Positions 1,833 to 36,108 of a stretch of DNA of 64,000 nucleotides are shown here, piece by piece. Position 1 is the stretch's first letter; each line of letters begins with the position of its first letter. The translations under genes were made by a program, and so were the position numbers. Source of the stretch: a virus; IMG/VR virus record IMGVR_UViG_3300020000_000011, positions 1-64,000 of that record, one strand, 5' to 3'. The notes under the pieces are model-generated. The model did no database searches. It saw only the letters and a program-made list of their open reading frames with translations, and was not told the DNA's origin.

Positions 1833-2757
1833 CCGCTTCTTGACCGACATGGCCGACGTGCTGCGCGCCGCCGGATGCGAGGTCGTCGAACACCTCGGAT
1901 GGGAGAAGCGCGCCCGTTCCTCCGGCGGCTACGAACCCGGCCGACCGTGGGCGATCTTTTGGCACCACACGGCGTCGCGCCCGGGGACGTCGTCGGCGAG
2001 CAACGTCGCCTACATCATCACCGGATCCCCGGTCGCCCCGGTCGCCAACCTGTACCTGCACACCGACGGCGTCTACCACGTGTGTGCCGCCGGGGCGACG
2101 AACACCAACGGCAAAGGCAACGCCATGCCGGTCAGCAAGGGAACAATTCCCAGCGACCAGGCCAACACCTATGCGGTGTCGATTGAGGCCGGGAACGACG
2201 GTGTCGGCGAGCCGTGGCGTGAAGAGATGATCGACGCCTACTTCCGAGGCAGCAACGCGCTCGCCGCCGCGTACGGATTGAAGCCATCGGACATCGTCAG
2301 TCACTCCGCCTACACCTCCCGCAAGATCGACCCAGCAACCGCTCGTGCCGTCATCGGCGCATGGTCGCCGCGTTCGATCAACACCGCAGGCTCGTGGTCG
2401 CTGGACGACATGCGCGCCGAAGCCACCCGCCGGGCTAGCGCCCCGACACCACCACCGACAGGAGACGACGTGCAAGTACGACTGCTCATCCTCACCGACA
2501 GCGACGCCCAGTTCCTGGCGATGACCGACGACGAGGGCCAGGCGCTGTACGTCACTTGGGCCGGTCCCGGCGGCGAAGGCAGTGCTGCCGACAAGGCAGT
2601 CACGGCGCACCGCGCCGAGGCCAAGCGCAAGCGCCACAAGTTCGAACAGGAGGGCGACCTCGCCGGTCTGTTCAACTGTGTCCGTGTCGGCCCGCTTCCG
2701 TACGGCGACAGCAAGCACACCTGGGATGGCTCCGAGACATGGAGCAGCGCCCCCTGA
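1825..2757 (+). CDS. N-acetylmuramoyl-L-alanine amidase (endolysin)
   Basis: 310 residues. The N-terminal domain (~20-190) has the Amidase_2/PGRP layout: IFWHHTA with paired His at 47-48, a central NTYAVSIEAGN segment and a later SHSAYTSRKIDP zinc-site segment. These enzymes cleave the bond between N-acetylmuramic acid and L-alanine in peptidoglycan at lysis. A Pro/Thr-rich linker near residue 210 leads to a small C-terminal domain of unknown type, possibly for wall binding. There is no signal peptide, so export needs a holin, and the next gene fits that role. The open frame extends upstream of 1825, but ATG 1825 follows an AGGGAGG ribosome-binding site and overlaps the previous gene. Confidence 0.85.
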   Translation: MGDRFLTDMADVLRAAGCEVVEHLGWEKRARSSGGYEPGRPWAIFWHHTASRPGTSSASNVAYIITGSPVAPVANLYLHTDGVYHVCAAGATNTNGKGNAMPVSKGTIPSDQANTYAVSIEAGNDGVGEPWREEMIDAYFRGSNALAAAYGLKPSDIVSHSAYTSRKIDPATARAVIGAWSPRSINTAGSWSLDDMRAEATRRASAPTPPPTGDDVQVRLLILTDSDAQFLAMTDDEGQALYVTWAGPGGEGSAADKAVTAHRAEAKRKRHKFEQEGDLAGLFNCVRVGPLPYGDSKHTWDGSETWSSAP

Positions 2758-2774
2758 GCCTTCGGAGGTGAGCG

Positions 2775-3068
2775 TTGTTCAGAAACCGGAGCGTGATCGA
2801 GATCATGATCCTGGTGTTCACGTGCATCGTCGGGTTCTTCATCGTCGGTCTGAGCGTGCTCATCCTGGTCGTGGAGACACGCAACCCCGAGGCCGACACC
2901 GGGATCATCGCCAACACGCTCGCCTCTCTGGTGTCCGGCATCCTCGGCGCCCTGCTCGGTGTGATCGCAGGCAAGTCGTCGGCCGATTCGGAACTGCACC
3001 GCCGCCCCGACGGCCACTCCGACTCGATTGAGCAGCCGCCGACCGAAGAGATCAAGGTGATCGAATGA
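2775..3068 (+). CDS. holin-like membrane protein
   Basis: 97 residues from a TTG start with a strong GGAGGTGAG site just upstream. Two hydrophobic segments (about 9-33 and 45-65) are followed by a charged, acidic cytoplasmic tail. Size, topology and position directly after the amidase fit a holin, which makes the membrane lesions that release endolysin. Family membership cannot be proved by eye because holins are diverse. Confidence 0.65.
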
Positions 3069-3643
3069 GGCTGATCGCCCCGATCTACGGCCTGTCGTGC
3101 ATCGCTGCGGCGGGGGCGTTGACGGTGAGCACCCTGTTCGTCTACCAGACCGCGGCCGGTGTCGAGACGACGGCGACGACCACGACCACCTCGACGACCA
3201 CGACGACGATCCCCGAACCGATCCCCGGTCCGCGAGGTCCGCCAGGCCCGGCCGGTCCGAAGGGCGCCCCGGGCGCGCAAGGTGTGTCCGGCCCGCCGGG
3301 ATCCACCGGCCCGCAAGGCGTGTCCGGTCCGCCGGGGCCACCAGGCGCGCAGGGCGCCCAAGGCCAGCAGGGGTCGAGAGGCTCCGACGGTGCCCAAGGT
3401 CAGCGCGGTGCGACCGGCGCCACGGGCGCCCAGGGGCTGCCAGGTGCCACGGGAGCGGCCGGAACGCAAGGTCCGCCAGGATCGGTCGGTGCGACTGGTG
3501 CGGCCGGTGAGATCGGTCCACAGGGGCCAGCGGGGCCTCCCGGTCCGCAGTGCCCGATCGGGTTCCACGGTGCTGTGGTGGCGCTGCACCAGCGCGCCCC
3601 GGTCGACCAGGACCTGACGGTCGCGGTGTGTGTCCCCGACTAG
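3065..3643 (+). CDS. membrane-anchored collagen-like protein
   Basis: 192 residues: an N-terminal hydrophobic segment (~4-27), a threonine-rich linker (~38-50), then about 35 uninterrupted Gly-X-Y triplets rich in Pro, Ala and Gln, and a short end with [10 protein letters not shown]. Gly-X-Y repeats form collagen-like triple helices and are common in phage fibres. The membrane anchor and position beside the holin instead suggest a product displayed on the infected cell, or a spanin-like or adhesion role. It overlaps the holin-like gene by ATGA. Base use is GC-rich and repeat-driven. Confidence 0.75.
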
Positions 3644-3667
3644 AACCCGGCTGCTACGGTTACGCCT

Positions 3668-3874
3668 GTGAGAAGGACCCGCTCTGATCCGATCCAGTTC
3701 CGTCTGTTGCTCGACGACTACGCCGTGCTGGAGCAGATCGCCGACGCCGCCGGGCAGACCCCGAAGGACTTCGTGATCGACCTGACCTTGAAGCGCGTCG
3801 CCACAGAGCGCCGCAAGATGAAGACGACCACGTCGAGGACGAGCACGGCGACGAACGCCGTCGCTGGCCGTTAG
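3668..3874 (+). CDS. ribbon-helix-helix-like small protein
   Basis: 68 residues; IQFRLLLDDYAVLEQIADAAG followed by KDFVIDLTLKRVA gives the strand-helix-helix pattern of CopG-type regulators. The C-terminal tail is basic and Thr-rich. A TACGGT box (3655-3660) ends 7 nt before the GTG, so the transcript is probably leaderless. It may be a second DNA-binding regulator at the start of the small-gene region. Confidence 0.6.
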   Translation: MRRTRSDPIQFRLLLDDYAVLEQIADAAGQTPKDFVIDLTLKRVATERRKMKTTTSRTSTATNAVAGR

Positions 3875-3924
3875 ACACACCTCACGTATAACCTCCAATA
3901 CCCTAGACAAGGACCTGACTCCCG

Positions 3925-4167
3925 ATGACCAAGCCCGCTGGACGCCCGTCCAATTTCGTCTCTGACCAGCACACCCTGTACTGCGGCTGGGTGATGGGCC
4001 TGATGGTCAAGGCCGGGCTGCCGTTCGAACCGGTCGCCGACGAGCACGGCAACTTCACCAACCGCGTCTCCGTCCCCACCCTGTCCGGGGTGGGGATCAC
4101 GCTGCTCATCCCACCCCCGCCGGACGACTGGAAGTTCCCGCTGATCGACGAAGCGATCACCCCGTGA
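3925..4167 (+). CDS. small hypothetical protein
   Basis: 80 residues opening TKPAGRPSNFVS and ending with a Pro-rich LIPPPPDDW segment. It has one Cys and a Met-rich hydrophobic stretch (WVMGLMVKAGL) too short to be a clear membrane span. The upstream sequence has TATAAC near 3888 and a CTAGACAAGGACC leader resembling the CAGAC leader of other genes here. No function is recognised. Confidence 0.6.
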   Translation: MTKPAGRPSNFVSDQHTLYCGWVMGLMVKAGLPFEPVADEHGNFTNRVSVPTLSGVGITLLIPPPPDDWKFPLIDEAITP

Positions 4168-4568
4168 ACCCGGCGTACACCGCCGCCCAGATGTGGGTCC
4201 GCAACCTGTCCGGCGACCAGGGCTGGCAAACCCACGTCTCGACACTCGACGAAGATGTCCTGCGCCACCTCGCCGCGCTGCTGAGGATCGAGGAACGCAC
4301 CACCAAGTCCCGCCGCGGGTTCGTCGAGATCCTGCTCGACCTGCTCCCCGCCCACGAATGCAACTGCGACAAACGGTGGACATCCGATGACGTCCCCCAC
4401 GCCGCCGACTGCGAACGACTGAAGGCGTGCACCTGCTACCGCCAGTGGTCCGGCCCGGCCCTGCACATCAACGACCACTCCCCTGACTGCGAGTTGATGC
4501 GCCGCTGGATCCCGGCGCGCCCGACGATGCCGGACAACTACGACGACGAGGAAACGATCGTGCCCTGA
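4164..4568 (+). CDS. tandem Cys/His (zinc-binding-like) protein
   Basis: 134 residues, GTGA-coupled. A helical first half is followed by two similar Cys/His units: ECNC...HAADC and ACTC...HSPDC. The two-fold repeat of C-x-C and H-x2-D-C suggests two structural zinc sites. No enzyme motif is visible. It is one of several Cys-rich small proteins in this run. Confidence 0.65.
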   Translation: MNPAYTAAQMWVRNLSGDQGWQTHVSTLDEDVLRHLAALLRIEERTTKSRRGFVEILLDLLPAHECNCDKRWTSDDVPHAADCERLKACTCYRQWSGPALHINDHSPDCELMRRWIPARPTMPDNYDDEETIVP

Positions 4569-4699
4569 TGCCGGACCGTAACAAGGAACTGTTGGAAGCC
4601 GCCCGGGCCTGGCGCGAGTCGCTGATCCCGAACACCTCGACCGCCGGACACGACACCGTTGTCCGACTGCTCGCTGCGATCGCTAGGTTCGACTCATGA
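4568..4699 (+). CDS. very small hypothetical protein (43 aa)
   Basis: An ATG overlapping the previous stop and a TGA overlapping the next ATG frame a 43-residue helical peptide (PDRNKELLEAARAWRESLIP). The double overlap continues the chain of coupled genes, which is the main evidence that it is real. Its function is unknown. Confidence 0.55.
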   Translation: MPDRNKELLEAARAWRESLIPNTSTAGHDTVVRLLAAIARFDS

Positions 4700-5007
4700 C
4701 CGACGAACCCGACCCGATCGACACCGAGTACGAGTTGATCATGCCGTTCATCGTCTGCCAGTCGAACGGTGGACCGTACGACGACGACTCGTTCGTCGCC
4801 GGGTGGGAGTTGGGCAAGCTGGACGTCGAGCTACCGACGCACGCTGCGCTCGGCTACCAGTCGTTGTCGCGGCTGGCGCACACCGGGACGGTCCCGCAGG
4901 TCGAGTTGTTGGCGATGAAGCACGGCTTCCGAGTGAGGCACGTGAGCGACGACCAGGACGGCTGGGTCAACATCGACCTGGAACGCATCGAAGACGGCGC
5001 CGAGTGA
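4696..5007 (+). CDS. acidic hypothetical protein
   Basis: 103 residues, acidic, with alternating strands (YELIMPFIVCQ) and short helices. A TAGGTT box at 4684-4689 lies 6 nt before the ATG, so a leaderless transcript may start here inside the preceding gene as well as read-through. No motif is recognised. Confidence 0.6.
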   Translation: MTDEPDPIDTEYELIMPFIVCQSNGGPYDDDSFVAGWELGKLDVELPTHAALGYQSLSRLAHTGTVPQVELLAMKHGFRVRHVSDDQDGWVNIDLERIEDGAE

Positions 5008-12418: not shown

Positions 12419-15400
12419 GTGGATGTGGCACTGCGTGACCTTGACGGCCCCCTGCTAGCCGCCAGATGGGCACGAGCGGTCCTCGCTCAGGACCCGGCAC
12501 TGGTAGCGGCCTGCGAACAGGAGGCGTCCGTACGGGGCTTCACAGCGGCAGGTCTGGTCGCGGCGACGAAGAAGAAGAAGGAACCGTCGTTCAAGGCCGA
12601 CATCAAACCGACCGGGAAGTCGTACCAGACCCTCGCCAACGAAGCGAAGGCCAACCGCGACGCCGGGAACCCCGGCGGGATGAAGCGCGGCAAGACGAAG
12701 CCGGAGAACGTCGGCAAGGGCAAGTTCCGCAAGAAGTCCGGCGCCGGTGGCGGTGGCCAGTTCACCTCCGCCGACGACCCTGAAGCGATCGCCGAGGGCG
12801 AGATCGTCGCCGGGCACAAGGAACAGCAGTCGCTGTCCGACGAGCGTGCCAAGGTCCGCGAGCGCCGATCCGGTGAGGACGAGCAGCAACGCCAGCAGCA
12901 CTACGCCGACGACCAGACCGACCGGGAAGCCGACCAGGCGAACCGTGACGCCGACGAACAGGACCGTGCCGCAGCCGACGCACGCAAAGCAACCCGTGAT
13001 GCGCGCAAGGCGATGGAGGCAGCCGAGGACCAAGACATCGACGACCGTGTCCGCGCCAACGACACGTACCAGCGGACCGCCCAAGGCCAGATCGCCCTGA
13101 TGCAACGGCAACTGTCCGAAGCCCGCCAGGTCGGCCACACCGACGACGAGAACAAACTGCTCGACCAGATCAAGGAAGCGAACACGGCGTTGGAACAGGC
13201 CCGCGCCGACCGTGCCGCGCTGGAGCAGGAACGCACATCGAAGAAGACCGACCGGGCGACGTCTCGTGTCGTCGACGCCACCACCGAAGCCGAAGCCCGC
13301 GCCAAGGCGGCAGCGGACAAACGGGCACGCGACAACGCCAAGCGGACCCGTGACGAGACGAAGCGATCCACCCGTGAGTCGGAGCGCCGGGCGATTCGTG
13401 AAGCCCGTGCTGCCGAGGACGCGGCGCTCGCTGCGAAGTCGGCCGAGTTGCGTGACCGGATCGAAGAAGCCCGGCAACGCAAGCGTGACGCCGCCGCAGC
13501 CCGCAAGGCCGAAGCGAAAGCGAAGAAGGAAGCCAAGGCAGCAGCCAGGGGCCGGAAGGCGTCGGGCATGGTCGCCGCGTTCGGCCGGTTCAGTGAGGAT
13601 CTCCACCCTCGTGGCAAGGACGGCAAGTGGATCGAACTCCACGGCCTCGTCGACGTGTTCGGCCTGTCCGGGTTCCAACACGGCCAGCGGGGCAACAAGC
13701 ACGTCCAGGGCGAAGTGACCGAGATCATCCCCAACCCGAAGGACCCGGGCAACCCGGTCGTCCGCGTGAAGATGACCGACCCGCGCTGGTCGCCGGACAA
13801 GTTCGGTCCGACCGTCGACGTTGACCGTCACCAGATCCAGGCCCGTGTGAAGCCGAAGGCGACACTGACACCGACCGCACCGAAGACCGGGACACCGACC
13901 GCTGTCCCGGCGGTGAAGCCCTCGATCGCCCCGGCGAAACCTGGCGTCACAGTTATACCACCGCGTACGCCAACGCCTGCGATGACCCCGCACCCCGACG
14001 GCCCCGGGTTCGCACCGCTCAACCCGCCATCCGAATGGGCAACGATGACCCAGCCCGAGCAGTTGGCGTGGATCACCGACCTGATGCACGCCGACTTCAC
14101 CAAGTGGCGCGAGCAGGAAACCGGATTCGACTTCACCGGCTTCGACTCCGGCATCGCGTTGAACACGGCGAACACGTACCGCGACCTCGCCAACTGGGAC
14201 CCGCAGACGGCACGCCGGATCGACAACCCGATCATGTCGACCGGCGGACTCGGCCAGGGCCTCAACTCCAACGCCATCGCCGTCGCCCACCCCGGCACCG
14301 AACATCCCGGCGGGATCGGCGAGAAGACCGGCCCGGCCTCGATGGTGTTCGGCGCCAAGTACATGTCGGGCATGAAGTTCTGGAAGCAGCAACAGGAAGC
14401 ATCCGGCGGCAAGGACATCCCGTGGTCGATGTCGTCGCAGTACGGCGACCCGATGTTGACCGTCACCCACGAGTTCTCCCACCAACGCCAGTTCCGTTTC
14501 CTCGACATGGCGATGCGCGACGCCAACAAGCCGTTCGCGACCGCAGTGCGCGACGACGGATTCGGGATGGTGCCCGACTCCAGCAACTGGGCAGAAACCC
14601 AGGCACTGCGCTACGACATCCAGAAACTGGCACCGACGAAGTACGGCAAGTCGAAGTCGTCCGAAGCGTTCGCCGAGTCGTGGACCGCGAAGATGACCGG
14701 CGACTCCAGCCCCGAGCTAGACAACGCGTTGGAGCAGTGGGACATGTACATGGGCCTCGTCGAACACCTGCCGACCGACCGGCACTGGGACGCCACCCCG
14801 TTCGACCAGTTGTCCGCCGCCGAACAGGACCAGTTCTGGAAGGACAACGGCAAGTACCTCGATCTCCCCGGGATGGCCGAGCACTACCCCGATTCAGCCG
14901 CGGCCTACTCGGCGTGGCAGGCCGGGACCGAAGCACCCGAGGCGACCACACCGTTCGGGCACGGCTACTCGACTCCGGCAGCCGACTGGACCGAAGACGC
15001 CCCGGCGGCGATGCGAACCGCACCGGTGACCGACCCCGCCCAACTCGACGACCTGTACACGCGGCTCAACGCCAACCGTGCACAGGCGCGGCGGCTGCGT
15101 CTCACCTACCCGGCCGGGATCGGCGACCCGCAAGCACAGACTCCGCGTGTCCGGCCCCCAGGCGCGCAAGCCGAACTCGACCGCCTCGACGCCGAGTACG
15201 CCGATCTCCGCTCCCAGTACCATCCGCCGGTCGACTACACCGGCCCCGTGGTTACCCCGGCCGCACCGGGCGATGTCGTCGAAGGCCCGAACGGCACCCA
15301 GTGGGAAGCGACCGCCAACGCCAACGGTGTCGAACTCACCTACGACCACCCGTCCGGCACACGCCTGTACGTCGACTCCGGCCCGAACGGCGTGAAGTGG

Positions 15401-16387
15401 TCGATCCACGAAGAAGGCCACGACGAACCGTTGAAGGCCGGGATGGCCCGCACCGAAGCGGCAGCGATGGACGACGCCTTGTGGTACGCCAACCTCGACA
15501 CCGGCCCGGCCGAGATGCAACCGGTCGACTACGGCGAGGCGCCGGAGCGTCCGTTCAGTCTGTCGGAGATGCCGATCTCGCCGAACGGGCAAGGTGCCGG
15601 TGGGATGGTCGGCGCCGGGATCGACTTCTACAACCAGTACCGCGGTGCGAAAGAGATCGTCGACAACCTCGGCGACGCCGGTCCGGCGATGCGCGAACAA
15701 CTCAAAGCGGTCGACATCAGGTTGCTGCCCAAGACGGTGCACACCGCCCTCGATCTGCGTGGCCCGAACGTGCCGATCTCCGGGCGTACGGCGATGCAGT
15801 TCATGGCTGCGATCGCTCACGCAGCGGCAGCCGACGACGTCGGGATCATCAACACCGCCGTCGCGAACGTGATGGCCAAGGGCCGTTCCGACGAAGAGAT
15901 CTCCGACCAGTTGACGAAACTCGGTTATACACCAGAGTTGGGTCTGGTGACGACGATGCAGAACGGCTGGAACGAGTCGTCCCGGTCGGCGTTCGGGTAC
16001 GCGATGCAGGGCCTCGTCGGCGGCAAGGCGCCACGCCAGCTACGCCGGATCTCCGACGTCGGTGGGGCCGCGGCGCTCACCGAACAGATCGGCGACCCGA
16101 TGCGAACGGTGATGGACACCCAGGCCCGAATGACCCAGGACTTCCTGCGACTCAACGGCCTCACCTCGCTGACCGTGCACCGCGGCGTGAACATCGACGT
16201 GTCCAAGCGTGAAGTGATCGCCAACCCGTTGTCGTCGTGGGCGCTCGACCCTGGCATCGCCAACCGGTTCGGGATGACGGTGTACTCCACCTCGCTCCCG
16301 GCCGAACGGATCTTCGCGGTTCCTGAAGCGACCGGGTTCGGCTACTCAACCCTCGGTGAGATCGTCGTCTACGGCGGGAAGGTGTGA
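12419..16387 (+). CDS. giant polyvalent protein: coiled coil, HPRG module, metallopeptidase, ADP-ribosyltransferase
   Basis: 1,322 residues from a GTG placed 6 nt after TAGCCT (12407-12412). In order: an N-terminal segment with QDPALVAACEQEAS; a Lys/Gly-rich stretch; a long charged coiled coil (~120-375); the shared DLHPRGKDGKWIELHG motif (~397) with a beta-rich, SH3-like segment; a Pro/Thr linker; a zincin-like domain with H684-E-F-S-H and later SSEAFAESWTAKM; further linkers; and a C-terminal ART domain (~1200-1322) with VHRG (R~1255), PLSSW and LGEIVVYGG (E~1314), the R-S-E order of arginine-type ADP-ribosyltransferases. Family knowledge: phage polyvalent proteins combine such domains and are delivered with DNA. 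Virion packaging is inferred. Confidence 0.75.
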   Translation: MDVALRDLDGPLLAARWARAVLAQDPALVAACEQEASVRGFTAAGLVAATKKKKEPSFKADIKPTGKSYQTLANEAKANRDAGNPGGMKRGKTKPENVGKGKFRKKSGAGGGGQFTSADDPEAIAEGEIVAGHKEQQSLSDERAKVRERRSGEDEQQRQQHYADDQTDREADQANRDADEQDRAAADARKATRDARKAMEAAEDQDIDDRVRANDTYQRTAQGQIALMQRQLSEARQVGHTDDENKLLDQIKEANTALEQARADRAALEQERTSKKTDRATSRVVDATTEAEARAKAAADKRARDNAKRTRDETKRSTRESERRAIREARAAEDAALAAKSAELRDRIEEARQRKRDAAAARKAEAKAKKEAKAAARGRKASGMVAAFGRFSEDLHPRGKDGKWIELHGLVDVFGLSGFQHGQRGNKHVQGEVTEIIPNPKDPGNPVVRVKMTDPRWSPDKFGPTVDVDRHQIQARVKPKATLTPTAPKTGTPTAVPAVKPSIAPAKPGVTVIPPRTPTPAMTPHPDGPGFAPLNPPSEWATMTQPEQLAWITDLMHADFTKWREQETGFDFTGFDSGIALNTANTYRDLANWDPQTARRIDNPIMSTGGLGQGLNSNAIAVAHPGTEHPGGIGEKTGPASMVFGAKYMSGMKFWKQQQEASGGKDIPWSMSSQYGDPMLTVTHEFSHQRQFRFLDMAMRDANKPFATAVRDDGFGMVPDSSNWAETQALRYDIQKLAPTKYGKSKSSEAFAESWTAKMTGDSSPELDNALEQWDMYMGLVEHLPTDRHWDATPFDQLSAAEQDQFWKDNGKYLDLPGMAEHYPDSAAAYSAWQAGTEAPEATTPFGHGYSTPAADWTEDAPAAMRTAPVTDPAQLDDLYTRLNANRAQARRLRLTYPAGIGDPQAQTPRVRPPGAQAELDRLDAEYADLRSQYHPPVDYTGPVVTPAAPGDVVEGPNGTQWEATANANGVELTYDHPSGTRLYVDSGPNGVKWSIHEEGHDEPLKAGMARTEAAAMDDALWYANLDTGPAEMQPVDYGEAPERPFSLSEMPISPNGQGAGGMVGAGIDFYNQYRGAKEIVDNLGDAGPAMREQLKAVDIRLLPKTVHTALDLRGPNVPISGRTAMQFMAAIAHAAAADDVGIINTAVANVMAKGRSDEEISDQLTKLGYTPELGLVTTMQNGWNESSRSAFGYAMQGLVGGKAPRQLRRISDVGGAAALTEQIGDPMRTVMDTQARMTQDFLRLNGLTSLTVHRGVNIDVSKREVIANPLSSWALDPGIANRFGMTVYSTSLPAERIFAVPEATGFGYSTLGEIVVYGGKV

Positions 16388-16500: not shown

Positions 16501-16718
16501 CCTCGATCGCCGTGCCGATCTGCTACTCGTGCATCCGTCTCCACCCCGGCGACGGGATGACCTGCGAAGCGTTCCCCGCCGGGATCCCCGAACAGATCGT
16601 CTCCAGCGAAGCCGACCATCGCCTGCCGTTCGCCGGTGACGGTGGCCTCACGTTCGAACAAGACCCCGATCTGCCCGAACCGGACGACACCGTGTTCGAA
16701 GGGAGCACCGATGAATGA
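16497..16718 (+). CDS. small Cys-containing protein of a phage-associated family
   Basis: 73 residues with ICYSCIRLHPGDGMTCEAFP and GIPEQIVSS, then H-R-x-P-x-x-GD-G-x-x-F. I recognise this C-x2-C...C-x-AFP-x-GIP pattern from small proteins often found beside phage head or toxin genes, but it has no established function. A single zinc site is likely. Here it sits between two HPRG-motif genes. Confidence 0.65.
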   Translation: MTSIAVPICYSCIRLHPGDGMTCEAFPAGIPEQIVSSEADHRLPFAGDGGLTFEQDPDLPEPDDTVFEGSTDE

Positions 16719-17448
16719 CGCCGAGGTGATGACCGCGTGGCTCACCGAACTCAACCGCCCGGCCCCCGACCCTGTGACCGTCGCCGCGTTGGAGGCGTCC
16801 GCCGAAGCCAACGGCTGGCAACCGCAGGCCGTGCTCGCCGCGTTCGACGAAGTGCTGCACCCCCGTGGTCACGACGGCCGGTTCATCGAGATCGGTGGAC
16901 TGATGAAGATCATCTCCGGCGACTACAAGGACGAGCGCGGCACGGTCGAGTCGATCACCCCCGACAAGTCCGGTCGCCCGACGATCCGGTTGAAGCTCGA
17001 CGACGGCGAGTCGATCGACGTCAAACCGGATGCCATCGAACAAGCCGCCGACAAGGCCCGGCTCATCGACGCAACGGATATGCCCGCTGTCGGCCGCATC
17101 CCGAGGTCACCGAAGCGGGAGGGACCGGCGCCGACGTTCGCACCGGGCGAACTCGACTGGATCGCCAACCGCGGTCAGGTCGAAGAGACACCGAACGAGG
17201 CTGGTCACAAGAAGTGGACGTACTACGGGAACGAGACGCACACCTCTGGATGGGGCGACTCGGTCAGCAGGCCAGTGACGATTCGGACTGAACTGTCGGA
17301 CCCGGCCGAGTTGGACGACGAAGAGGTGTACCAAGCGTTGATGCTCGTGAAAGATGCACGGTACGGCGTCGATCCACCCGAGGTGACCGCCTACCGCGAC
17401 GCGCTCCAAGACGAATGGCGCATGCGGATCGCCCGGAGTTACCAGTGA
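16711..17448 (+). CDS. HPRG-module protein (possible virion-delivered effector)
   Basis: 245 residues. The N-terminus (EVMTAWLTELNRPAPDPV ... EANGWQPQ) matches that of the next gene, and VLHPRGHDGRFIEIGG (~48-63) is the shared motif. An SH3/KOW-like beta segment follows (GTVESITPDKSGRPTIRL). The C-terminal ~100 residues (WTYYGNETHTSGWGD) are unassigned and may be a small effector domain. It starts 8 nt inside the preceding gene. Confidence 0.65.
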   Translation: MNDAEVMTAWLTELNRPAPDPVTVAALEASAEANGWQPQAVLAAFDEVLHPRGHDGRFIEIGGLMKIISGDYKDERGTVESITPDKSGRPTIRLKLDDGESIDVKPDAIEQAADKARLIDATDMPAVGRIPRSPKREGPAPTFAPGELDWIANRGQVEETPNEAGHKKWTYYGNETHTSGWGDSVSRPVTIRTELSDPAELDDEEVYQALMLVKDARYGVDPPEVTAYRDALQDEWRMRIARSYQ

Positions 17449-19955
17449 ACGATGACGCCGACGTCCTCGCAGCGTGGCTGGTCGAACTGACCCAACCGGA
17501 ACCGAACCCGGCGATCATCGCCTCACTGGAATCGGTCGCCGAAGACAGCGGCTGGTCGCCTCGCCACGCCCTCACTGCCCTGCTGGCACGCACCGACTTC
17601 AACCCCGACCTGCACCCCCGCGGTCACGACGGCAAGTTCATCGAGAAGTTCGGCATCGTCAAACTGCTCGGCAACGTCATCGCACCCGACGGACGCAAGG
17701 TCGACGCCACCGGCCGACGCGGTGTCGTCGAAGGCATCGACCCCGACCCGCGCACCCCCGGCCGACCGAACATCCGTGTCCGCATGATCGACAAGGACGG
17801 CCGACCCGGCCCGCCTGTCCACGTCAAGCCCGACGGTGTCGAACAGGCACCCGAGAAGGCCCGCCTCGACAAGCCTCTCGACCGTGCACCCAGTGGACCC
17901 AGACGCCCGGCACAGGCGCCAGGGCGTCCGCTGGCGACCCCGAAGCGCACCGTGGTACCCGAGACACCCGAACAACGCCAGGCACGCGCTGACGCCGACG
18001 AGAAGGCAGCGATCGCCCGCGAGGCACGCACCGTCCCCAACGCCGACATCGACTACCAGACCACCGTCGGCCCGTCGCAGTGGCGCGACGCGGTGATGAC
18101 CGAGAAGCAGGCCCGCGAAGCCAAAGCCGCAGCCGACCAAGCACGACGCCAGGCGCTGATCGACGACGTCAACGAACAAGCCAAGGGACTGTCAACAACC
18201 GACGCCGAAGAACGAGCCATTGGCCTCGACGCCATCCTCGCCAAGTTGCGGTTCTCGATCATCGACACCGACAAGGTCCACGACCACCTGTACCCGCCCG
18301 AAGACGGCAGCCAGTGGACCCCGGAGCGCACCGCCCAACACGAAGCGATGTGGGAAGAGTTGCTCGCCGACGTCGAGAAGGCCGGGATCCCCAAGGACAA
18401 GGACGCGTTCGTGCTCGGTGGACTCCCGGGCGCGGGCAAGTCGTACTCGCTGCGCCCCGGCGAAGCAGCCGACTCGTTCGGTGTCGTCGCCTGGGAACCG
18501 AACGTCCCCGTCCCCGAAACAGCGACGCACGTGTCGATCAACCCCGACGTCGTGAAAGAGATGCTGATCGCTCACGGCATGCTGCCCGAGGGCCTGTCCG
18601 ACGACATGAAACCGATGGAGAAGGTCACGTTCCTCCACGAAGAATCGTCGTACCTCGCCAAGATGTTCTCCGCCCGACTCGGCGAAGAGGGCTACAACGT
18701 GGTGCTCGACAACACGTTCGACTCCGAGGGCGGGATGCTGAAGCGGATGGCCCCACTCGCTCGCGAGGGCTACACGTTCCGTGGCCTGTTCGCCGACATC
18801 CCGATCGACGAATCGAAGAAGTCGGCCAAGGACCGCTACATCCGTGGCGCGCTGACACCCGAAGGTGGACGGTTCGTCCCCTCCAGCGTGCAGGGCAACC
18901 GGCAGTCGACGAAGTCGTTGTCGAAGAACCGTGACGCGTTCGATCTGATGGTCGCCCAGGACTGGTTCACCGACTGGAAGGTGATCGACAACACCGGCGT
19001 CACTGAAGGCCACCCGAAGAAAGAGATCGTCGGCGAAGGCCAAGGCACCGGCGCGGCAGCGTTCGCCTACCGTCCCGGCCAGGAGAAGAACGCACCCAAG
19101 GTCGGCCCGCGCCTGACACCCGAACAGCAACCGGCACCGACGATCGACGTGTCGACGATCGGTGGACCGAACCGCACCTCGATCTCCCCGGCCGGATCCG
19201 AACAGTTGGCCAAGGACATGATGTCCGGCAAACCGATCGCACCCGAAGACCACGACGTCGACGACATCGTCGACCACTTCGCCGACAGCGAGAACCCGGT
19301 CGACCTGACCCTGATGTCGCAGTTCTCGGCGATGCGCGCCGGTGGCATCCCCCGCTCGCAGATGCCGCAGATCTCCAAGAAACACACCGACGCGTTCCAG
19401 AACCGGTTGCGTGAATCCGGTGTCGACTTCGGCCCCGGGATCGTCGACCCGCTCGACCTGAAAGCGACCCAGTCCGAGTTGGACGGCAAGACCGTCGGCG
19501 GGATCATGCGCGCCGCGAGGGCCGGGGAGATGGACCTCCACGGGCACCCGATCTGGATCTCCAACGACGGGTACGTCCTCGACGGCCACCACCGTTGGGG
19601 CGCGGCGTCGGCACTGTCGTCGAACTGTGGTGAGCCGGGCTGTGTGCAGATCCCGGTGATCCGAGTCGACCTGCCGATGTCCGAGCTACTCCAGTTCGCC
19701 AACACGTTCAATGACGACATGGGTGTCCAGCGTCTCGGTTTCGGAGAGTCGCTCCCGGCCGGGCAGATCGCACCGGTCGCGTCGGGCATGCTCGCTGCCG
19801 CAGAGTTCGGTCCACCGGCGCAACTCCCGGCGCCGGACGACAACGGGAACTACGAGATGGCCACCGACGAAGAGGACGGCGTCAACCCCGCCGATCTGGA
19901 GGGCTTGTCGCACGGTGACGGTTCAGCGTTCGGCTATGAACCGAAGGGCGAGTAA
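17445..19955 (+). CDS. polyvalent protein: HPRG module, zeta-toxin-like kinase, ParB-like domain
   Basis: 836 residues, GTGA-coupled. The N-terminal module repeats the previous protein (AAWLVELTQPEPNP) with DLHPRGHDGKFIEKFG (~55). A long linker leads to a zeta-toxin/UDP-N-acetylglucosamine kinase-like domain: Walker A GGLPGAGKS (G325-S333), VSINPDVVKEML, and NVVLDNTFDSEGGMLKR. Zeta toxins phosphorylate UDP-N-acetylglucosamine and block wall synthesis. A second domain at ~680-740 has ISNDGYVLDGHHRWGAA (D713-G-H-H-R-W), a ParB/Srx-like motif. The end is acidic and disordered. No epsilon-type antitoxin is evident nearby. Substrate and delivery are inferred. Confidence 0.75.
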   Translation: MNDDADVLAAWLVELTQPEPNPAIIASLESVAEDSGWSPRHALTALLARTDFNPDLHPRGHDGKFIEKFGIVKLLGNVIAPDGRKVDATGRRGVVEGIDPDPRTPGRPNIRVRMIDKDGRPGPPVHVKPDGVEQAPEKARLDKPLDRAPSGPRRPAQAPGRPLATPKRTVVPETPEQRQARADADEKAAIAREARTVPNADIDYQTTVGPSQWRDAVMTEKQAREAKAAADQARRQALIDDVNEQAKGLSTTDAEERAIGLDAILAKLRFSIIDTDKVHDHLYPPEDGSQWTPERTAQHEAMWEELLADVEKAGIPKDKDAFVLGGLPGAGKSYSLRPGEAADSFGVVAWEPNVPVPETATHVSINPDVVKEMLIAHGMLPEGLSDDMKPMEKVTFLHEESSYLAKMFSARLGEEGYNVVLDNTFDSEGGMLKRMAPLAREGYTFRGLFADIPIDESKKSAKDRYIRGALTPEGGRFVPSSVQGNRQSTKSLSKNRDAFDLMVAQDWFTDWKVIDNTGVTEGHPKKEIVGEGQGTGAAAFAYRPGQEKNAPKVGPRLTPEQQPAPTIDVSTIGGPNRTSISPAGSEQLAKDMMSGKPIAPEDHDVDDIVDHFADSENPVDLTLMSQFSAMRAGGIPRSQMPQISKKHTDAFQNRLRESGVDFGPGIVDPLDLKATQSELDGKTVGGIMRAARAGEMDLHGHPIWISNDGYVLDGHHRWGAASALSSNCGEPGCVQIPVIRVDLPMSELLQFANTFNDDMGVQRLGFGESLPAGQIAPVASGMLAAAEFGPPAQLPAPDDNGNYEMATDEEDGVNPADLEGLSHGDGSAFGYEPKGE

Positions 19956-21422: not shown

Positions 21423-24400
21423 GTGCCACCGAGGACGTTCGATCTCCGCGTCGACCAGATCACCACCGAGAACTTCGCGGCGATCGCTGCCAATCCCGAG
21501 ACGAGGTGGTACGCGCAACGCTCCCTGCGGCGCCTCGCCCCGGCTCTGACCGCTGCCGGTGAGTGGAACCCGCTGCTCCACCCCCGCGGGAAGGACGGCA
21601 AGTTCTTGGAACGGTTCGGGTGGGTCCGTTGGCTCGACAAGAACTTCAACTGGCAAGAGGGCTGGATCCAAGACATCGACCCGAACACCGGCGAACTGTC
21701 GGTCCGCTCCGGTGGCTCGACGAACAAGTTCCCGAACGCCAAGAACCTGTACTCGCGACCCAAGCGCAAAGCGCGCCTCGGCCTCCCCAACCCCGTCGAC
21801 GGGACCGTGCCCGACGGATGGAAGAAGGTCGGTGGCCAAGGCGGATCGAACCCCGGCGGGATGTACCAGACCGTCGGCGGCAACGCCAACGCCTCACCCG
21901 AACTCGGCCCCAGGTCGAACACCGTGTACTCGCTGATGCAGATGTCGGCCGGGCAACCGCTGTACGGACTGTTCCTGAAAGACAAGGGCCTCCCCGCCGC
22001 ATCGTTCGCCGGTGGCTCCAACGTCGTGTCCGTGCCCCGCCTCGACGGCACCAAGGGGCGCCAGGATGTCCTCTACCGATCCGGGCCTGACTGGTACCGA
22101 GTCCCGGCGTCCGGCTCGATGCTCGACGCTGACGGGGTCCTGCGTGACGATCTGAAGTGGGCGGCGACCGACGTGTTCGGCGAACCCAACTCGGAGCGAC
22201 GCAAAGCGGTCCTCGACGACCAGGACGCGCTCGGCACGAACCTCGGCGAAGGGTTCGAAGTCGACGATCTCGCCGGGCTGATCCAATCGACCGGGTCGAG
22301 CCTGCCCGACGACGGCGACAAGTTCTACGTGAAGACGATGAGCATCCCCGAACGGGCGCGCAACGAGGCGATGGCCAACCACCTGTACGAGATGCTCGGT
22401 GTCCCGGTGCCCGAGGTGGCGGTCGGCACCGACGGCAAGACGATCTCGTCGAAGCTGATCCCCGGCAACGTCCCGTTCGACCCGTCGAACACGGCGCACA
22501 TCGAAGCCGCGCAGAAGGGATTCATCGCCGACGCGCTGCTCGCCAACTGGGACGCGGTCGGGATGACCTACGACAACATGCAGGTCGACGCCGACGGCAA
22601 CGTGTGGCGGATCGACGCCGGGGGCGCGCTCGCCTACCGGGCGCAAGGCAAACCGAAGGGCGCGATGTTCGGGACCACCGTCGGCGAGATGAACTCGCTG
22701 CGGAACCCGCAGATCAACCCGCAAGCCGCACTCGTATACGGCGGTATCCCTCACGCCGACCAGGTCGCCCAAGCCGAGGTGCTGGCCACGATCCACCCCG
22801 AGGACCTGCTCGCGCTGGCCGAAGAGTTCGAACTCCCCGAGATCGGCCCGATCCTCGTCGCCCGGCGCCAGAACATCCTCGACGCCTACCACGTCACCAC
22901 GTTCAAGGCACCCGAGCCGGAACCGGTGAAGGCCCCCGAGATCAACCTGAACCCGCCACCGCAAGGCACCGGCCCGCAAGTCGCCGTCGACACCTACGAC
23001 CAGCAGTTCGCCAACCTGTCGACCGTCACGTTCGGTGGCGTGTGGAACAGCAACGTCTCCGAAGCGAACCGTGCCGAGTGGTGGAAGAACGCCGTGATCG
23101 CCCGCGGCGGCGACCTGCACACCTACTACGGCGAGTACAACCACCAGCCGAACACCGACAACGTGTCGATGCTTGCCCGCAACCAGATGAACGGCAAGGT
23201 CGAGAAGATCTACTTGTCCGACCAGACGCCGGTCCTCGGCGAACTGTTCCGCGACGACCCGGGCCTCGACAACCTCGTCGACGACTTGAAGGTGTCGCGT
23301 GAACTGGCGATCGCCGAGATCGTCGACCAGTCGAAGGGCGTCCCGCTCAACGACATCATGGCCGACACGAAGATGTTCGTCGGTGACGACTCGGTCGATT
23401 CGGGCACGATGGCGTTGCACCACTTCCAAGTCGGCATCCCGAACTGGCAGACGCTGATGGCCGGGCGGGAACGCAACTACTACGGGCCAGAGAACGCCTG
23501 GGCGCTGCGCGACGGGTACGGCCAACTGTGGGAGATCACCACGTTCCCCGAAGACGACGGCGACGACCTCGTGTTGCAGTGGATCTCACCCTCGGGCAAG
23601 GCGTCGACATGGACGCTGAACAAAGAGTCGTTCGCCAACAGCAACTGGTTCCGGGCGGGCAACGACACCACCGCAGCGATCTGGAAGTCGAAGATCCCCG
23701 AGACTGCCGCCAAGCCGAACCCCGACGACGTCGACGTCTCGCACCTGTCACCGGACGACCAGAAGTGGTACCAGCAGATGTCGGCGACCGATGTCGACAA
23801 GCCGGAACCGATCGAAGCCGACCCGGCCGACGCGCCGAGCCAGGTGTTCGTCAAGACCGACCCGACGACATGGAAGTACGCCTCCGACGAAGAGTTCAAC
23901 GAGGCGTTCCCCGACTCGACGGTCGCCACCCAGATCCAGAACGACGTCGACCCGGAACTGGAGAAGGTGATCGCCGAAGAGGAAGCGATCGCTCAGGCGG
24001 TCGCCAACGCCGCGCCGACAGTCGAGATCAAGACGAACGGCACCATCGTCGACGCCCTCGGCCCCGGCGAACCGATCATGTCGACCGAGTGGCTGCCCGG
24101 CGACATCGACCAGATCACCGCCGACCTGATGGGCAAGAACGTCGTGGTCCTGCCGCTCGGCGCGCTCGACAACCCCGACTGGGACGGCCAGATGGGGATC
24201 GCCAACGGCCTCGGCACCGTCGTCGAAGTGAAGCTGAACAACGAATGGGTCGGCGGCTACGACTCTACGGGCAAGTACAACTCCGGCTGGGAGGATGTCG
24301 TCAAGGTCAGGGTGCAACTCCCGTCCGGGCAGTTCACCACGATCATCGGTGGCGACTCCGGCAAGAACCCGAAGGTCGTGTTCCCGGTGGAGATGACCCC

Positions 24401-27400
24401 GGTGCCGATGACCCCGACGTTCAAGAAGACCGGCGAGATCGTCATCAACGGCACCGTCGTCGGCACCTGGCACGCACCGTATACCGGGCCATACGAAGAC
24501 CAGGGTTACTACTACTACCGCGGCGTGATCGACGCCGACCACTCGATCACCGGCAAGCCGGTGAAGTTCCAGACCAACAAGAAGAAGAACATGAAGGCCG
24601 GACCGGCGTCGCTCGTCGTGCCGATCGCACCGAAGCCGACGAAAGCGAAGTCGACCAAGGTGTACATGACCGAGCAGGAGATCAAGGATCTCAACGCCCA
24701 ACTCGTCAACGTCCAAGCCGACATCGCAGCGACCACCGACCTGATCGCCAACCCGACCCAGACCCCGGTCGGTGAAGGCGTCCCCCTCGCCGATGGTTCG
24801 TACCCGCAGATCGGCGACTGGGTGATGTCGACCAAGGACGGCAAGTACGGCAAGGTCGTCGAACTCTCACCGAACATCGGCCCGGCGTACTCGGCCGCGG
24901 TCGCCGCCAACTACATCAAGCTGAACTTCCAAGACCCGGCCACGGGGAAGTGGAAGAAGTCGAACCGCACCCTGCCGACACTCGTCGCCGTCGCCGGGCC
25001 GGGTGAACCACCGTTCGTGATGGAGACGAAGGCGTTGCAGGACGTCTCCGGCGACTGGTACGGGCCGGGCATGGAGGTCTATGCCGCAGGCGCAGTGGGT
25101 GGCGCCACCGACGTCGGTGACTTCTCCAACCAGTTGGTCCTCGACACCACCACCGACGGCAAGGTCAAGTTGAAGCACGCCGACGGCACCGTCCACTGGA
25201 CGACGTCGAAGAAGGTGTTCGCCCCCGGCAAGGCAGCCGAAGAGGAAGGGGCCGTGCTGCCGACGATCAAGAAACTGCCGACCGGCGCGTCCGCCGAGGA
25301 ACTCAACGCCCACCTCGCCGCGCTCAACGACACCCACACGCTGATCGCCGCACAGATCGCCAACTCGACGTCGAAGAAACCGAAAGCGAAGAAGGCGGTC
25401 GGGACCCCGTACCCCGGCCCGAACGGCAAGACCGTCAACCAGCCCGCGTACTACGCCGAGCAACGCACCGCCAAGGGCCTCAACAACTACAAGGACGGCT
25501 ACGCCCCATCGGTCGGCCAGATCCTGCGACACAACGACGGCACCCAGTACGTCGTTGCCGAAGTCGGACTGGAGTACACATCCCACAAGAACTCGGTGCG
25601 TGTCTATCCGCTCGGCGACGCGTACAACTCCAAGTGGCGTGCAGTGACCACGATGGTCGTCGACCACGAGACGACGCTGACCGACGGATTCGGCAACCCG
25701 CTACCGATCATCAACCAGGTCGAGGGCGCCGACTGGTCACCGACGTCGGGTGTGCTGTGGCGCCAGGACACCGAAGAGAGCTACTACCACAAGAACCCGC
25801 TGACCTTGAAGACCGAGTGGCGCACGAAGCCGGTGTCGAAGTTCTACGTCGTGTCCGGCGAAGGCGCGGTGTACAACATCGACGGCACCAAGGTGCAGTC
25901 GTGGAATGTCAGTTCGACGCTGGCCAACTCGGTGCGCGTCGGTTACATCGACAAGGACGACAACAGCGCCGGGGCGATGAAGCTGACGGTGTCGATCCAG
26001 CAGCACGACAAGATCGGCGCAGTCCAATACGCCGTTATACACGACCCGGCTGATTCGGCCGGTGTGATCCTCACCAAGCCGAAGGTCGAAGGCCCGAAGC
26101 CCGACCTCGGTGTCTACGACAAGGTGAAGGAAATGTACACAATCATCACGCAGGAAGAGTACGACGCCTCGCCGACGACCTACACGATCCTGCCCAACCA
26201 GGAGCACACGCAGACCGCGGCACAGTGGAAGGCAGCGCATGGCGTGCAGCCGGTCGTGCCACCCGTCGCTGAACCTGCACAGGCGCCCGAGGTGGCGCTG
26301 CCGGAACCCAGCGAGCTACCCACCGCGCCGGATCTCCCCGTGTTCGCAGGCGCCAACCCGCAAGGCACAGAGGTCCCGCACCCGGCGGTCACCACGTCGT
26401 CGGTCGGGGTCCCCTCGTACAAGGCGACCGGCGGCACGAACCTCGACGTCGCCGGGATCGGCGGGGCACGCTCGGTGATGGGCGCGCTCGCCGAAACGAT
26501 CGACACCGCCAAGGCGAACAAGCAGACCGGTGAGAAGACGTGGATCTCGACGTACGGCCTCGCCGACCACGACGTCATCGAAGACATGATGGTCCAGACC
26601 CAAGTGGTACGCGACTCCGCCGGGAAAGAGTTCGTCGAAGTCCGCTTCCGTGTCGACACCGAAGCCGCCCGCACCAACCACGCCACGTTCATCACGTCGT
26701 CGACGAACCAGTCCGGCGACTGGGACTTCAACGACCGCAACGCCAAGAACCTCGTCGCCGGTGACCTGATCGCCGTGCGCGTCTCCGGTGGTGGTGGCGT
26801 GACGGTGTCCGGTGCGCTGCGACCCGACGGTGGCGCTGGTGAAGGCAAGACCCCGAACGCGACGGTGACCGGCCCACCGACGCTGATCGGCAAGAACAAG
26901 GCCGGGACGTACGACGTGTGGCGCACCCCGGTGGTCACCGCCAACGGTGACGAAGGCTGGATCGACCTGGAAGACCGCGACGGTGCCGACACGATCGCCA
27001 CAGCGTTCTGGGATCCGACCAAGCCGCGGACGACGAACGGTAACAAGAGCCTCAACCCGAACGCCCAAGCCGACGGCTGGTCGGTGAAGACCACGAGCCT
27101 CGGCTGGGAACGTTCTGACTACCAGGACGGCAAGGACGAACGCTACGACGACGCCGTCAAGAAACTCGGCAACGGATCGAACACGACCACAGTCGGCCAG
27201 GGCTGGGTGCTGAACCGCGACTACGACGGCGCCAACATCCAGTACCAGACGTCGTCCGGCCGGAACTCCAACGACGGCAAGGTCGTGATCCGCGTCCCGG
27301 TCGACGACCCCGAAGCGCAACGCAAGATCTCCGAAGCGATGGAGTTGGTCGGCGTGTCGAAGGAAGCGCAGGCCCCGCCGGACAAGGCGGCGTTGCAGAA

Positions 27401-31659: not shown

Positions 31660-31702
31660 CACCCGCACAGTACCCACCTGTAACGGCGAATAACCGGATA
31701 TC

Positions 31703-33805: not shown

Positions 33806-34026
33806 GGTTCCCCTTGTCTTGGTCTTGATCTTGTCGCGAGATCGGAGAAGAAGTCGAGCGTCTCGCCGATCGCAGATGGTGTCATCGGTGCCATCGCCTC
33901 GCGGGCCTCGATCTCTCGGGCCAACGTCATCCCCGGGTCGATCTTGTAGGCCAGTTCACGGCCGCGGATCCGTTCCCGCACTGCGGCAATCGCTGCCGCA
34001 ATCTTGGCGTCTTGTCTGGAAGGCAT
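33802..34026 (-). CDS. small hypothetical protein, head of leftward operon
   Basis: 74 residues. The ATG at 34026 lies 6 nt after TAGTGT on the minus strand, so leaderless; a GTG one codon upstream is possible. Helical and basic at the N-terminus (QDAKIAAAIAAVRERIRG). It is divergent from the transglycosylase gene. Confidence 0.6.
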   Translation of the reverse strand: MPSRQDAKIAAAIAAVRERIRGRELAYKIDPGMTLAREIEAREAMAPMTPSAIGETLDFFSDLATRSRPRQGEP

Positions 34027-34046
34027 CACGGCACACTACTCGACCT

Positions 34047-34063
34047 GTTACGGTTACCGCAAC
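34047..34063. promoter_or_regulatory. palindrome overlapping -10 of the transglycosylase gene
   Basis: GTTACGGTTACCGCAAC reads almost the same on both strands (two mismatches off centre). It overlaps TACGGT (34049-34054), the likely -10 box for 34085, and lies between divergent genes, so it is a good operator candidate. Confidence 0.4.
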
Positions 34064-34084
34064 GGGCAACTTGGAGGGAAACCC

Positions 34085-34765
34085 ATGATCAACTTTCTAC
34101 GACGCAACGACCTGACCACCGACTGGGTCCGATGGGCCGTCGGTGCTCTGCTCGTCGCCGGGCTGTTCTGCCCGTACCTGACATCGTCGACGGCCACCGC
34201 CGCGCCAGCACCGGCCACCAAGGCGCCCGCCGTCGCCAAGACCACCCCGATCGGGGTGACGAATACGTTGAGGGCGCTCGATAAGTTGAGGTCCTTCGGC
34301 TACTCGATCGACACGCCCGCCCGCGCCGCCAAAGCAATCCGGCACTGGCAGAAAGTCAACGGTTTAGTCGTCGATGGGATCGTCGGTTCGGAGACTCTCG
34401 GGTCGCTGAACCTGAGCGCGCAGCCCACCGTCCCGGCTGTTCGTCTCAACCCGCCAGCCCCGGCGCCCGAACCGGTGGTGGGTAACGATCCCGCGTCCAC
34501 CGAGCAGATCATCCGCGAGGTGTGGCCCGACAACATCGAAGACTGGGCGGTGCGGATCGCCAAACGCGAGTCCGGCCCGAACCTCAAAGTCGACGCCGCC
34601 AACTACTGCTGCTACGGAATCTTCCAGATCTACTACTCGGTCCACCGGGCCTGGCTCGCCGACTACGGCGTCAACCAGCCGTCCGACCTGTTCGACCCTC
34701 GCGTCAACGCCACCGTCGCACTGGCCCTGTACGGACAGGTGGGGTGCCGACCGTGGGGATGCTGA
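34085..34765 (+). CDS. secreted lytic transglycosylase-like protein with peptidoglycan-binding domain
   Basis: 226 residues with a GGAGG site. An N-terminal signal/anchor (~15-40, GALLVAGLFCPYL) is followed by a PG_binding_1-like domain (~60-105, AAKAIRHWQKVNGLVVDG) and a C-terminal lysozyme/SLT-like domain (~150-226) with RIAKRESGPN (E162 as candidate catalytic acid), YGIFQIYYS and a late ALALYGQ. Such enzymes cleave glycan strands. Having its own export signal, it could act outside the lysis cassette, for example on DNA entry or wall remodelling. The C-terminus CRPWGC suggests a disulfide. Confidence 0.7.
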   Translation: MINFLRRNDLTTDWVRWAVGALLVAGLFCPYLTSSTATAAPAPATKAPAVAKTTPIGVTNTLRALDKLRSFGYSIDTPARAAKAIRHWQKVNGLVVDGIVGSETLGSLNLSAQPTVPAVRLNPPAPAPEPVVGNDPASTEQIIREVWPDNIEDWAVRIAKRESGPNLKVDAANYCCYGIFQIYYSVHRAWLADYGVNQPSDLFDPRVNATVALALYGQVGCRPWGC

Positions 34766-36093: not shown

Positions 36094-36108
36094 GCGCGCA
36101 CCGTAGCA

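Follow-up and report, generated by a model that had tools for sequence, protein, structure and literature searches.

The gene pair and its neighbors in the window

The window (the whole analyzed stretch of 64,000 nucleotides, i.e., bases 1–64000 of a linear IMG/VR virus record of 96,595 bases) carries on its plus strand an endolysin gene (1825–2757) encoding an N-acetylmuramoyl-L-alanine amidase (Pfam Amidase_2, E = 4.2e-11; PHROG phrog_880 endolysin, E = 1.1e-22) in which a hydrophobic N-terminus is absent, as judged by eye. After 17 bases it is followed by a gene for a 97-aa two-helix membrane protein (2775–3068, +), a holin-like candidate partner recognized from an AlphaFold2 model and a 31-row alignment, which starts with TTG downstream of a GGAGGTG and is the sole plus-strand ORF shorter than 160 aa with a 19-residue hydropathy of at least 2.0 within 1–10 kb of the window. 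The ATG of the next gene, at 3065, lies inside the upstream stop in an ATGA overlap (3065–3068, +), so that the coupling to a holin-like gene proposed by the sequence-only reading holds at the level of the junction as well as of the upstream product with its two predicted helices.

The coupled gene (3065–3643, +) encodes a 192-aa collagen-like protein (Pfam Collagen, E = 2.9e-19). Its residues 3–31 (3071–3157) form a hydrophobic segment (best 19-residue Kyte–Doolittle mean, KD19, of 1.86; charge bias; VYQ near the end), which is followed by a Thr-rich linker (residues 34–54; 3164–3226) and by 36 uninterrupted Gly-X-Y triplets (residues 55–162; 3227–3550); when this region was shuffled 20,000 times, the longest run was 13. 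The rise of a collagen triple helix is 0.286 nm per residue, and the repeat would be about 31 nm long if it is triple-helical throughout. The architecture described in the sequence-only reading, a collagen-like ORF with an N-terminal hydrophobic span and a Thr linker, is thus confirmed by hydropathy, triplet count and Pfam match; that reading did not mention the 30-residue C-terminal domain (residues 163–192; 3551–3640; CPIGFH...HQRAPVDQD...VC), which contains Cys163 and Cys189, is modeled as a beta-hairpin and is of a kind conserved in relatives.

Conservation and anatomy of the unit

Scanning of viral contigs with the two-helix proteins yielded 35 contigs (36 with the window), four of which (L013, L041, L044, L059) were removed because their collagen proteins are 0 or 1 residue away from another's, leaving 32 distinct contigs. 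The sequence-only reading had proposed looking for the same gene order in related phages, and the outcome is positive: a collagen gene with a hydrophobic N-terminus lies next to the two-helix gene in 29 of the 32, window included, and the two-helix gene is found without it in L014, L064 and L068. Counted among the 29 are L009 and L061, which end before the repeat and show only the collagen N-terminus, and L007, which ends inside the repeat; L017 starts inside the two-helix gene. The 4-bp overlap is present in 25 of the 29 contigs carrying both genes (window included), the other junctions being 8 bp of overlap in L012, 17 bp in L060 and L063, and abutting genes in L048. The two-helix gene is single-copy in each of the 14 records searched. 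Both genes are under purifying selection, with dN below dS in all eight pairs of relatives compared, among which the window–L007 pair offers only 90 collagen codons and the L060–L063 pair is the weakest for the two-helix gene (0.21 vs. 0.31). Overall, the two genes travel as one conserved unit. Pairwise distances between two-helix proteins correlate with those between collagen N-termini (Mantel r = 0.60, p = 0.0002; 24 pairs, with no correction for common ancestry) more strongly than with those between collagen C-termini (r = 0.24, 24 pairs), which fits a contact within the membrane; shared descent alone could also yield such a correlation.

The collagen N-termini of the relatives align nearly gap-free, with a conserved hydrophobic core followed in many of them by an aromatic residue and Gln. 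KD19 ranges from 1.44 to 2.71 among the 29 members, two of which fall below 1.6. The ratio of K+R to D+E is 22:2 before the core and 7:51 after it, and nine of the 29 proteins have no K or R before the core. Hydropathy and charge bias together predict an N-in/C-out topology; the export of the collagen protein is well supported, and it is unlikely that the N-terminal segment is not membrane-inserted. A separate hint of export is provided by the C-terminal Cys pair, found in 25 of 26 complete members, since disulfide bonds are expected in extracytoplasmic and not in cytoplasmic parts. The repeat spans from about 62 residues (L012) to about 200 (L015, L016, L030, L031), with some starts set too early by the script via chance G-x-x matches and several repeats interrupted. 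The C-terminus comes mostly in two flavors (HQRxPVDxD and LNxPGGQV), and a model based on a 14-row alignment confidently predicts a hairpin of two strands. L069 carries another stretch, of about 100 residues, in place of this domain, so the C-terminal end looks exchangeable. No sequence match to the domain was found in PDB, a tblastn search in phages gave only two chance-level matches (E of 2 and 7), and fold searches with both predicted models were uninformative (best E of 1.1 and 6.1).

The AlphaFold2 model of the two-helix protein (mean pLDDT 82.6) places helices at residues 7–36 and 43–73. Ten residues are invariant across the 31 aligned sequences (R5, T42, I56, G58, A59, L60, L61, G62, A65, G66), and the three invariant glycines give helix 2 a G58xxxG62xxxG66 pattern. 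In the same 31 sequences the N-terminus is basic (71 K+R to 26 D+E), the loop is acidic (22:90) and the C-terminal tail is mixed (83:129); the basic N-terminus and acidic loop suggest that both ends are inside. The modeled protein with two TMDs would then have the N-in/C-in topology of class II holins. Family searches gave no confident match for it, and it need not be the holin, since other candidates exist near the endolysin of G001, a longer record that contains L030 (a small hydrophobic ORF), and in L036 (another gene matching a PHROG holin, E = 3.6e-4).

Two pattern scans of one genome each from 84,980 bacterial and archaeal species found no relatives; tblastn searches of INPHARED with four two-helix proteins (E up to 1) and with the window collagen (E up to 1e-3), both limited by low-complexity masking, found nothing; and a scan with collagen N-termini returned only three contigs, all already known. 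An actinobacterial host without a classical outer membrane may be inferred for the window phage, as its nearest listed MCP and amidase matches belong to actinobacteriophages (e.g., 34.6 and 38.2% identity). The G+C content of the related contigs L056 and L068 is 41–43%.

Genomic settings, parallel cases and ordinary collagen fibers

Of the 32 distinct contigs, 14 have a recognized endolysin next to the unit. The lysin gene is upstream on the same strand in 12 (the window, L007–L011, L014, which has no collagen gene, L015, L016, L031, L036 and L049), with one to a few small ORFs between it and the unit in L008, L016, L036 and L049; it lies downstream of the unit in L053 and is divergent in L061. 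These enzymes are of different kinds, including amidase-type phrog_880 matches (window, L007, L036, L049, L061), an M15 type (L009), a weak VanY match with a peptidoglycan-binding domain (L010, L014), a metallo-endopeptidase (L053), proteins with LysM or peptidoglycan-binding domains (L015, L016, L031, L008) and another PHROG endolysin (L011). In the remaining 18 contigs no endolysin was recognized beside the unit, some of these being cases of contig ends or of unclassified or eye-judged neighbors; the upstream protein in L040, L042 and L045 has no family match, and the family searches left out the neighbors of L017, L056, L058, L062–L064, L067, L068 and L069.

Several other settings are represented among the relatives. 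The unit lies between the head (capsid) protease and MCP genes in L012 and L030, upstream of a tape-measure gene in L048 and, judging by its likeness to L048, in L043, after tail-fiber-like genes in L058, L062 and L067 (by eye), and on the strand opposite to its neighbors in L060 and L063. An integrase is nearby in L040, L045 and L049 and, by eye, in L064, the vicinity of an integrase being a usual place for accessory genes. In G001 the pair is located near 6.5 kb between protease and MCP genes that match the same PHROG families as those of the window phage, and the endolysin lies some 38 kb away, near 45–46 kb. Since the unit occurs elsewhere among head or tail genes, or next to neighbors that are unclear, it is not tied to the lysis cassette. 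Thus, the earlier placement of the collagen gene inside a lysis cassette is appropriate for the window, where the amidase gene is upstream, but does not extend to a rule, and a simple reading of it as a lysis-cassette gene is weakened by the relatives at other sites.

A number of further features were observed in the window and the related contigs. By eye, a 531-aa Thr-rich protein (30082–31677, −) with a possible signal or lipobox LLASC ends in an LPHTG-like sorting motif, a hydrophobic stretch and RRRK; it has no Pfam or PHROG match at the cut-offs used and is a possible phage-encoded wall-anchored surface protein. Another protein (34004–34765, +) combines a peptidoglycan-binding domain (E = 5.9e-7) with a hydrophobic segment close to the N-terminus and is a possible second, exported wall enzyme; its look-alikes, recognized by eye, occur near the two-helix gene in L014 (7653–8315, −) and L060 (7816–8460, −; Transglycosylas, E = 2.8e-31). 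A 73-aa two-helix protein (35905–36126, −; no PHROG match) resembles small membrane proteins of the “VDDG..GN..ADIFFL” type that L008, L010 and L036 carry near the unit. The products of the neighboring genes 12419–16387, 16636–17448, 17415–19955 and 21423–28226 (all +) share at their N-termini a motif similar to LHPRGxDGKFIE, which may be a common tag for packaging or processing; the first of them has a weak C-terminal ADP-ribosyltransferase match (E = 0.032). Small hydrophobic proteins with a VPxxPLxxLA-like motif lie near endolysins in L016 (5394–5729), L036 (5697–5978) and L096 (345–932); of these, only that of L036 has a PHROG match, to a holin (E = 3.6e-4).

A comparable arrangement is found in cultured phages of Cutibacterium acnes. 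The gp19 of phage PA6 (L073, phrog_1806), annotated as “collagen like minor tail”, opens with a strongly hydrophobic stretch (KD19 of 2.51), follows the minor tail genes and directly precedes the endolysin gp20 and holin gp21; 232 INPHARED records match it with at least 60% identity over the aligned part. In PHL060L00 and CAP 7-1 the annotated start is further upstream, adding a basic KRQRR before the hydrophobic stretch, and two cysteines near the C-terminus fit the looser but not the stricter form of our Cys-pair pattern; PA6 fits neither. The PA6 gene (L073, 1631–2320) has its annotated start at the membrane segment and a C-terminus unlike that of the other two, and its annotation or sequence may be off. 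This protein shares with the window collagen an N-terminal hydrophobic segment, a Gly-X-Y repeat and adjacency to amidase and holin genes. It differs in that no two-helix partner was seen alongside, its linker bears cysteines instead of Thr and its gene stands before the amidase gene, whereas the window collagen gene stands after it; outside the repeat the likeness is by layout alone. These well-known phages of a skin bacterium probably also carry a gene for a collagen that appears to be membrane-anchored.

A third arrangement is seen in L150 and L155. In L150 the neighbors of the collagen gene are an ORF that overlaps it and looks TM/coiled-coil by eye and, after it, an ORF that looks amidase-like by eye (without a family match) and a small hydrophobic ORF. 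In L155 the overlap with a TM/coiled-coil ORF is 4 bp, and the collagen gene is located between the head protease and MCP genes, with one small ORF before the latter.

We have compared the family with background collagens. These are not a random sample: they come from a scan with one family member, of whose 196 matches the 80 best were kept. Among the 69 distinct collagen ORFs in this set, only those of L150 and L155 reach a KD19 of 1.6 in the stretch that runs from the first start codon to the repeat; six of the 69 pass when the cut is lowered to 1.4, four of them without a Cys pair. Of the 60 background ORFs closed at the 3′ end, L150 and L155 alone have the Cys pair and the other 58 do not (Fisher p = 6e-4 for 2/2 vs. 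0/58, and p = 1.7e-20 for 25/26 members vs. 0/58; these values are descriptive only, because the family members are related). A looser Cys pattern matches three of the 60, the third being L117, with a cysteine-rich zinc-ribbon-like tail, i.e., one of the 58 that have no N-terminal segment of this kind. In cultured actinobacteriophages, six Gly-X-Y proteins were compared; they reach at most 0.53 in their first 60 residues and have no C-terminal Cys pair, and the DSL-LC01 collagens reach at most 1.51 in the 150 residues preceding the repeat. A fibre-like ORF of the window phage itself (55861–57795) attains 1.88 before a short repeat, in a stretch broken by Arg, Pro and Gln, and lacks the Cys pair. 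Thus, hydrophobic N-terminus and C-terminal Cys pair jointly separated the two kinds of collagen in this sample, and hydropathy alone did not. The family is distinct from the sampled tail collagens, and the earlier view that this is not an ordinary Gly-X-Y fiber is supported by the conserved N-terminal segment, the charge bias and the coupling across the 29 contigs. The named PHROG matches of the window collagen are mostly to tail-fiber families; these matches are driven by the repeat, and a tail-fiber reading based on them is disfavored by the differing N-terminal hydropathy and Cys pair. In the CC-licensed PMC literature, no membrane-anchored phage collagen appeared in the titles and abstract openings among the matches listed, and the word “collagen” has no occurrence in the text of PMC9671378.

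Possible roles and comparison with known systems

Overall, many uncultured bacterial viruses appear to encode a rigid collagen-like stalk anchored in the host membrane and not in the particle. In the explanation that we consider best, and to which we would give an even chance, this stalk would work with its two-helix partner at lysis. The collagen protein would be exported and, through its N-terminal segment, stay anchored N-in/C-out in the cytoplasmic membrane of the host. Its chains would trimerize into a rigid triple-helical rod, with lengths of roughly 18 to 60 nm across the relatives and with the outer end closed by a disulfide-stapled hairpin, and the rod would reach into or through the cell wall. 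Spanin analogue, surface spike and wall-spanning spacer, the functions put forward by the sequence-only reading, stay candidates. Made in step with the stalk, the two-helix glycine-zipper membrane protein may act as a holin or holin regulator at the last step of infection, and the stalk would help to break or cross the envelope around the wall cut by the endolysin. Such a division of labor would be the one known from those actinobacteriophage lysis modules that consist of a 2-TMD and a 1-TMD gene, the helical or globular part being replaced by collagen. The pairing in 29 of 32 contigs, the dN below dS in both genes, the correlated distances of the two proteins, the charge bias and Cys pair, the endolysins of different kinds beside the unit in 14 of 32, the parallels in C. 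acnes phages and L150 and the precedent of LysF1a/LysF1b (see below) speak for this explanation; the 18 contigs without a recognized endolysin, the other holin candidates in G001 and L036, the two-helix gene without a collagen gene in L014, L064 and L068, the integrase near the unit in some contigs, a topology opposite to that of LysF1b, the nine of 29 members without K or R before the core and the overlap in hydropathy with the fibre-like ORF of the window phage speak against it.

The unit may, instead, be an accessory surface-display (moron) module, in which the two-helix protein inserts or stabilizes an exported stalk that alters the surface of the infected cell, e.g., by blocking the DNA entry or receptor binding of competing phages, or by mediating adhesion. 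We consider this somewhat unlikely. It would account for the occurrence of the unit as a block at different kinds of site, for its orientation opposite to the neighbors in L060 and L063, for the integrase near it in L040, L045 and L049, and for a C-terminal domain replaceable as a binding tip might be (L069); its presence near lysis genes or attachment sites would then reflect the tolerance of extra genes there. Two-helix membrane proteins are known to act in superinfection exclusion, T4 Imm and HK97 gp15 being examples. However, the endolysin neighbors in 14 of 32 contigs are of different kinds and may well be too many for random placement, and the C. acnes phages that carry gp19 reportedly give no superinfection immunity, a statement that concerns a carrier state (PMC3094311).

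A virion component, i.e., a tail or capsid fiber with the hydrophobic stretch buried in the particle, as the gp19 annotation implies, is improbable. The repeat-driven PHROG matches, the position of gp19 after minor tail genes, the fairly hydrophobic fibre-like ORF of the window phage and the location of the gene just before MCP (L012, L030) or one small ORF before it (L155), similar to that of SPP1 gene 12, are in its favor. They are to be set against the low hydropathy of the six cultured Gly-X-Y proteins as compared with that of PA6 gp19, the small share of background ORFs passing either cut (2/69 and 6/69 among the best 80 of 196 matches) and a Cys pair that would fit export better than cytoplasmic assembly. 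In the published virion gel of phage PAD20, gp3, gp6, gp11, gp14, gp15 and gp16 were identified and gp17 gave a non-significant match; gp19 is not among the identified proteins, all visible bands but one having been identified, so that its absence from the table is negative evidence of limited depth (PMC3094311). Very improbable is release of the collagen into the wall or medium after cleavage of the N-terminal segment as a signal peptide, since the A-x-A-like sites seen by eye right after the core in several members (e.g., ALA/D, AIA/Q) are not conserved in place or kind, nine of 29 members lack positive charges ahead of the core, Gln and an aromatic residue recur where the core ends, and two-helix distances track the N-terminus more than the C-terminus.

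Extending the reading of an anchored stalk at lysis, we tentatively suggest, with more doubt than confidence, that membrane-anchored collagens may constitute a recurrent, overlooked class of phage envelope proteins that finish lysis as rigid rods extending from the cytoplasmic membrane across the wall. Such proteins would occur in three or more settings that appear unrelated: the two-helix unit, gp19 of C. acnes phages and the L150/L155 type with a TM/coiled-coil neighbor. If true, this class would stand in for the spanin, in collagen form, in cells that have no second membrane, the hosts being probably mostly Gram-positive. Phage collagens are often annotated as tail fibers. If a distinct subset is exported and membrane-anchored, such annotations would be wrong for it, and the lysis step of Gram-positive phages, at which virion exit through a thick envelope is poorly understood, would involve a structural protein overlooked so far. 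The C. acnes phages, with their 232 gp19-matching records, provide cultured phages for direct testing.

Among known systems, SPP1 gp12 is a collagen-like protein that binds mature capsids. It is listed as a 64-aa capsid accessory protein, with gene 12 preceding MCP (PMC6316719). It shares with tail-fiber collagens and with the window protein the Gly-X-Y triple-helix repeat; gp12 and the fibers are virion proteins, unlike what is predicted for the window protein. A collagen gene right before MCP is the order seen in L012 and L030 too, and L155 has it with a single small ORF intervening. The i-spanin (lambda Rz type) is a lysis gene product with an N-terminal TMD followed by an extracytoplasmic rod. 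This topology, with the rod outside (PMC13056207), is matched by the window collagen as predicted from hydropathy and charge bias, the rod being helical in the i-spanin and collagenous here. A simple pattern search for an o-spanin partner found no lipobox candidate among ORFs of at least 30 aa on both strands of 2601–4700. LysZ of the Corynebacterium glutamicum phages CL31 and Cog, a 177-aa protein with one TMD and a proposed N-in/C-out topology, has been proposed to act in a spanin-like manner on the envelope of a Gram-positive host, on lipid-anchored glycans (PMC13056207). The window collagen is similar to it, by description only, in its single TMD, topology and size; the passages describing LysZ mention neither a collagen repeat nor a two-helix partner (PMC13056207).

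The closest experimentally studied layout is that of LysF1a (two TMDs, 88 aa, N-in/C-in) and LysF1b (one TMD) of the F1 mycobacteriophages Girr and NormanBulbieJr, which are ATGA-overlapped, are both needed for efficient lysis and are treated alongside Ms6 genes 26/27 (PMC13056207). The window presents the same layout: a lysin gene and, downstream of it, a 2-TMD gene whose end overlaps a 1-TMD gene, with a two-TMD protein of similar size (97 vs. 88 aa), an ATGA overlap of −4, a partner with one N-terminal TMD and a lysis cassette around them, the likeness being one of gene layout and description. The differences concern the proteins themselves: LysF1b is predicted to be N-out/C-in with a charged helical cytoplasmic tail, whereas the window collagen is predicted to be N-in/C-out with a stalk and a Cys domain, and LysF1a is said to be without a defined GxxxG (PMC13056207), as compared with the G58xxxG62xxxG66 invariant in the 31 two-helix sequences. 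In its gene grammar the unit would resemble both LysF1a/LysF1b and LysZ.
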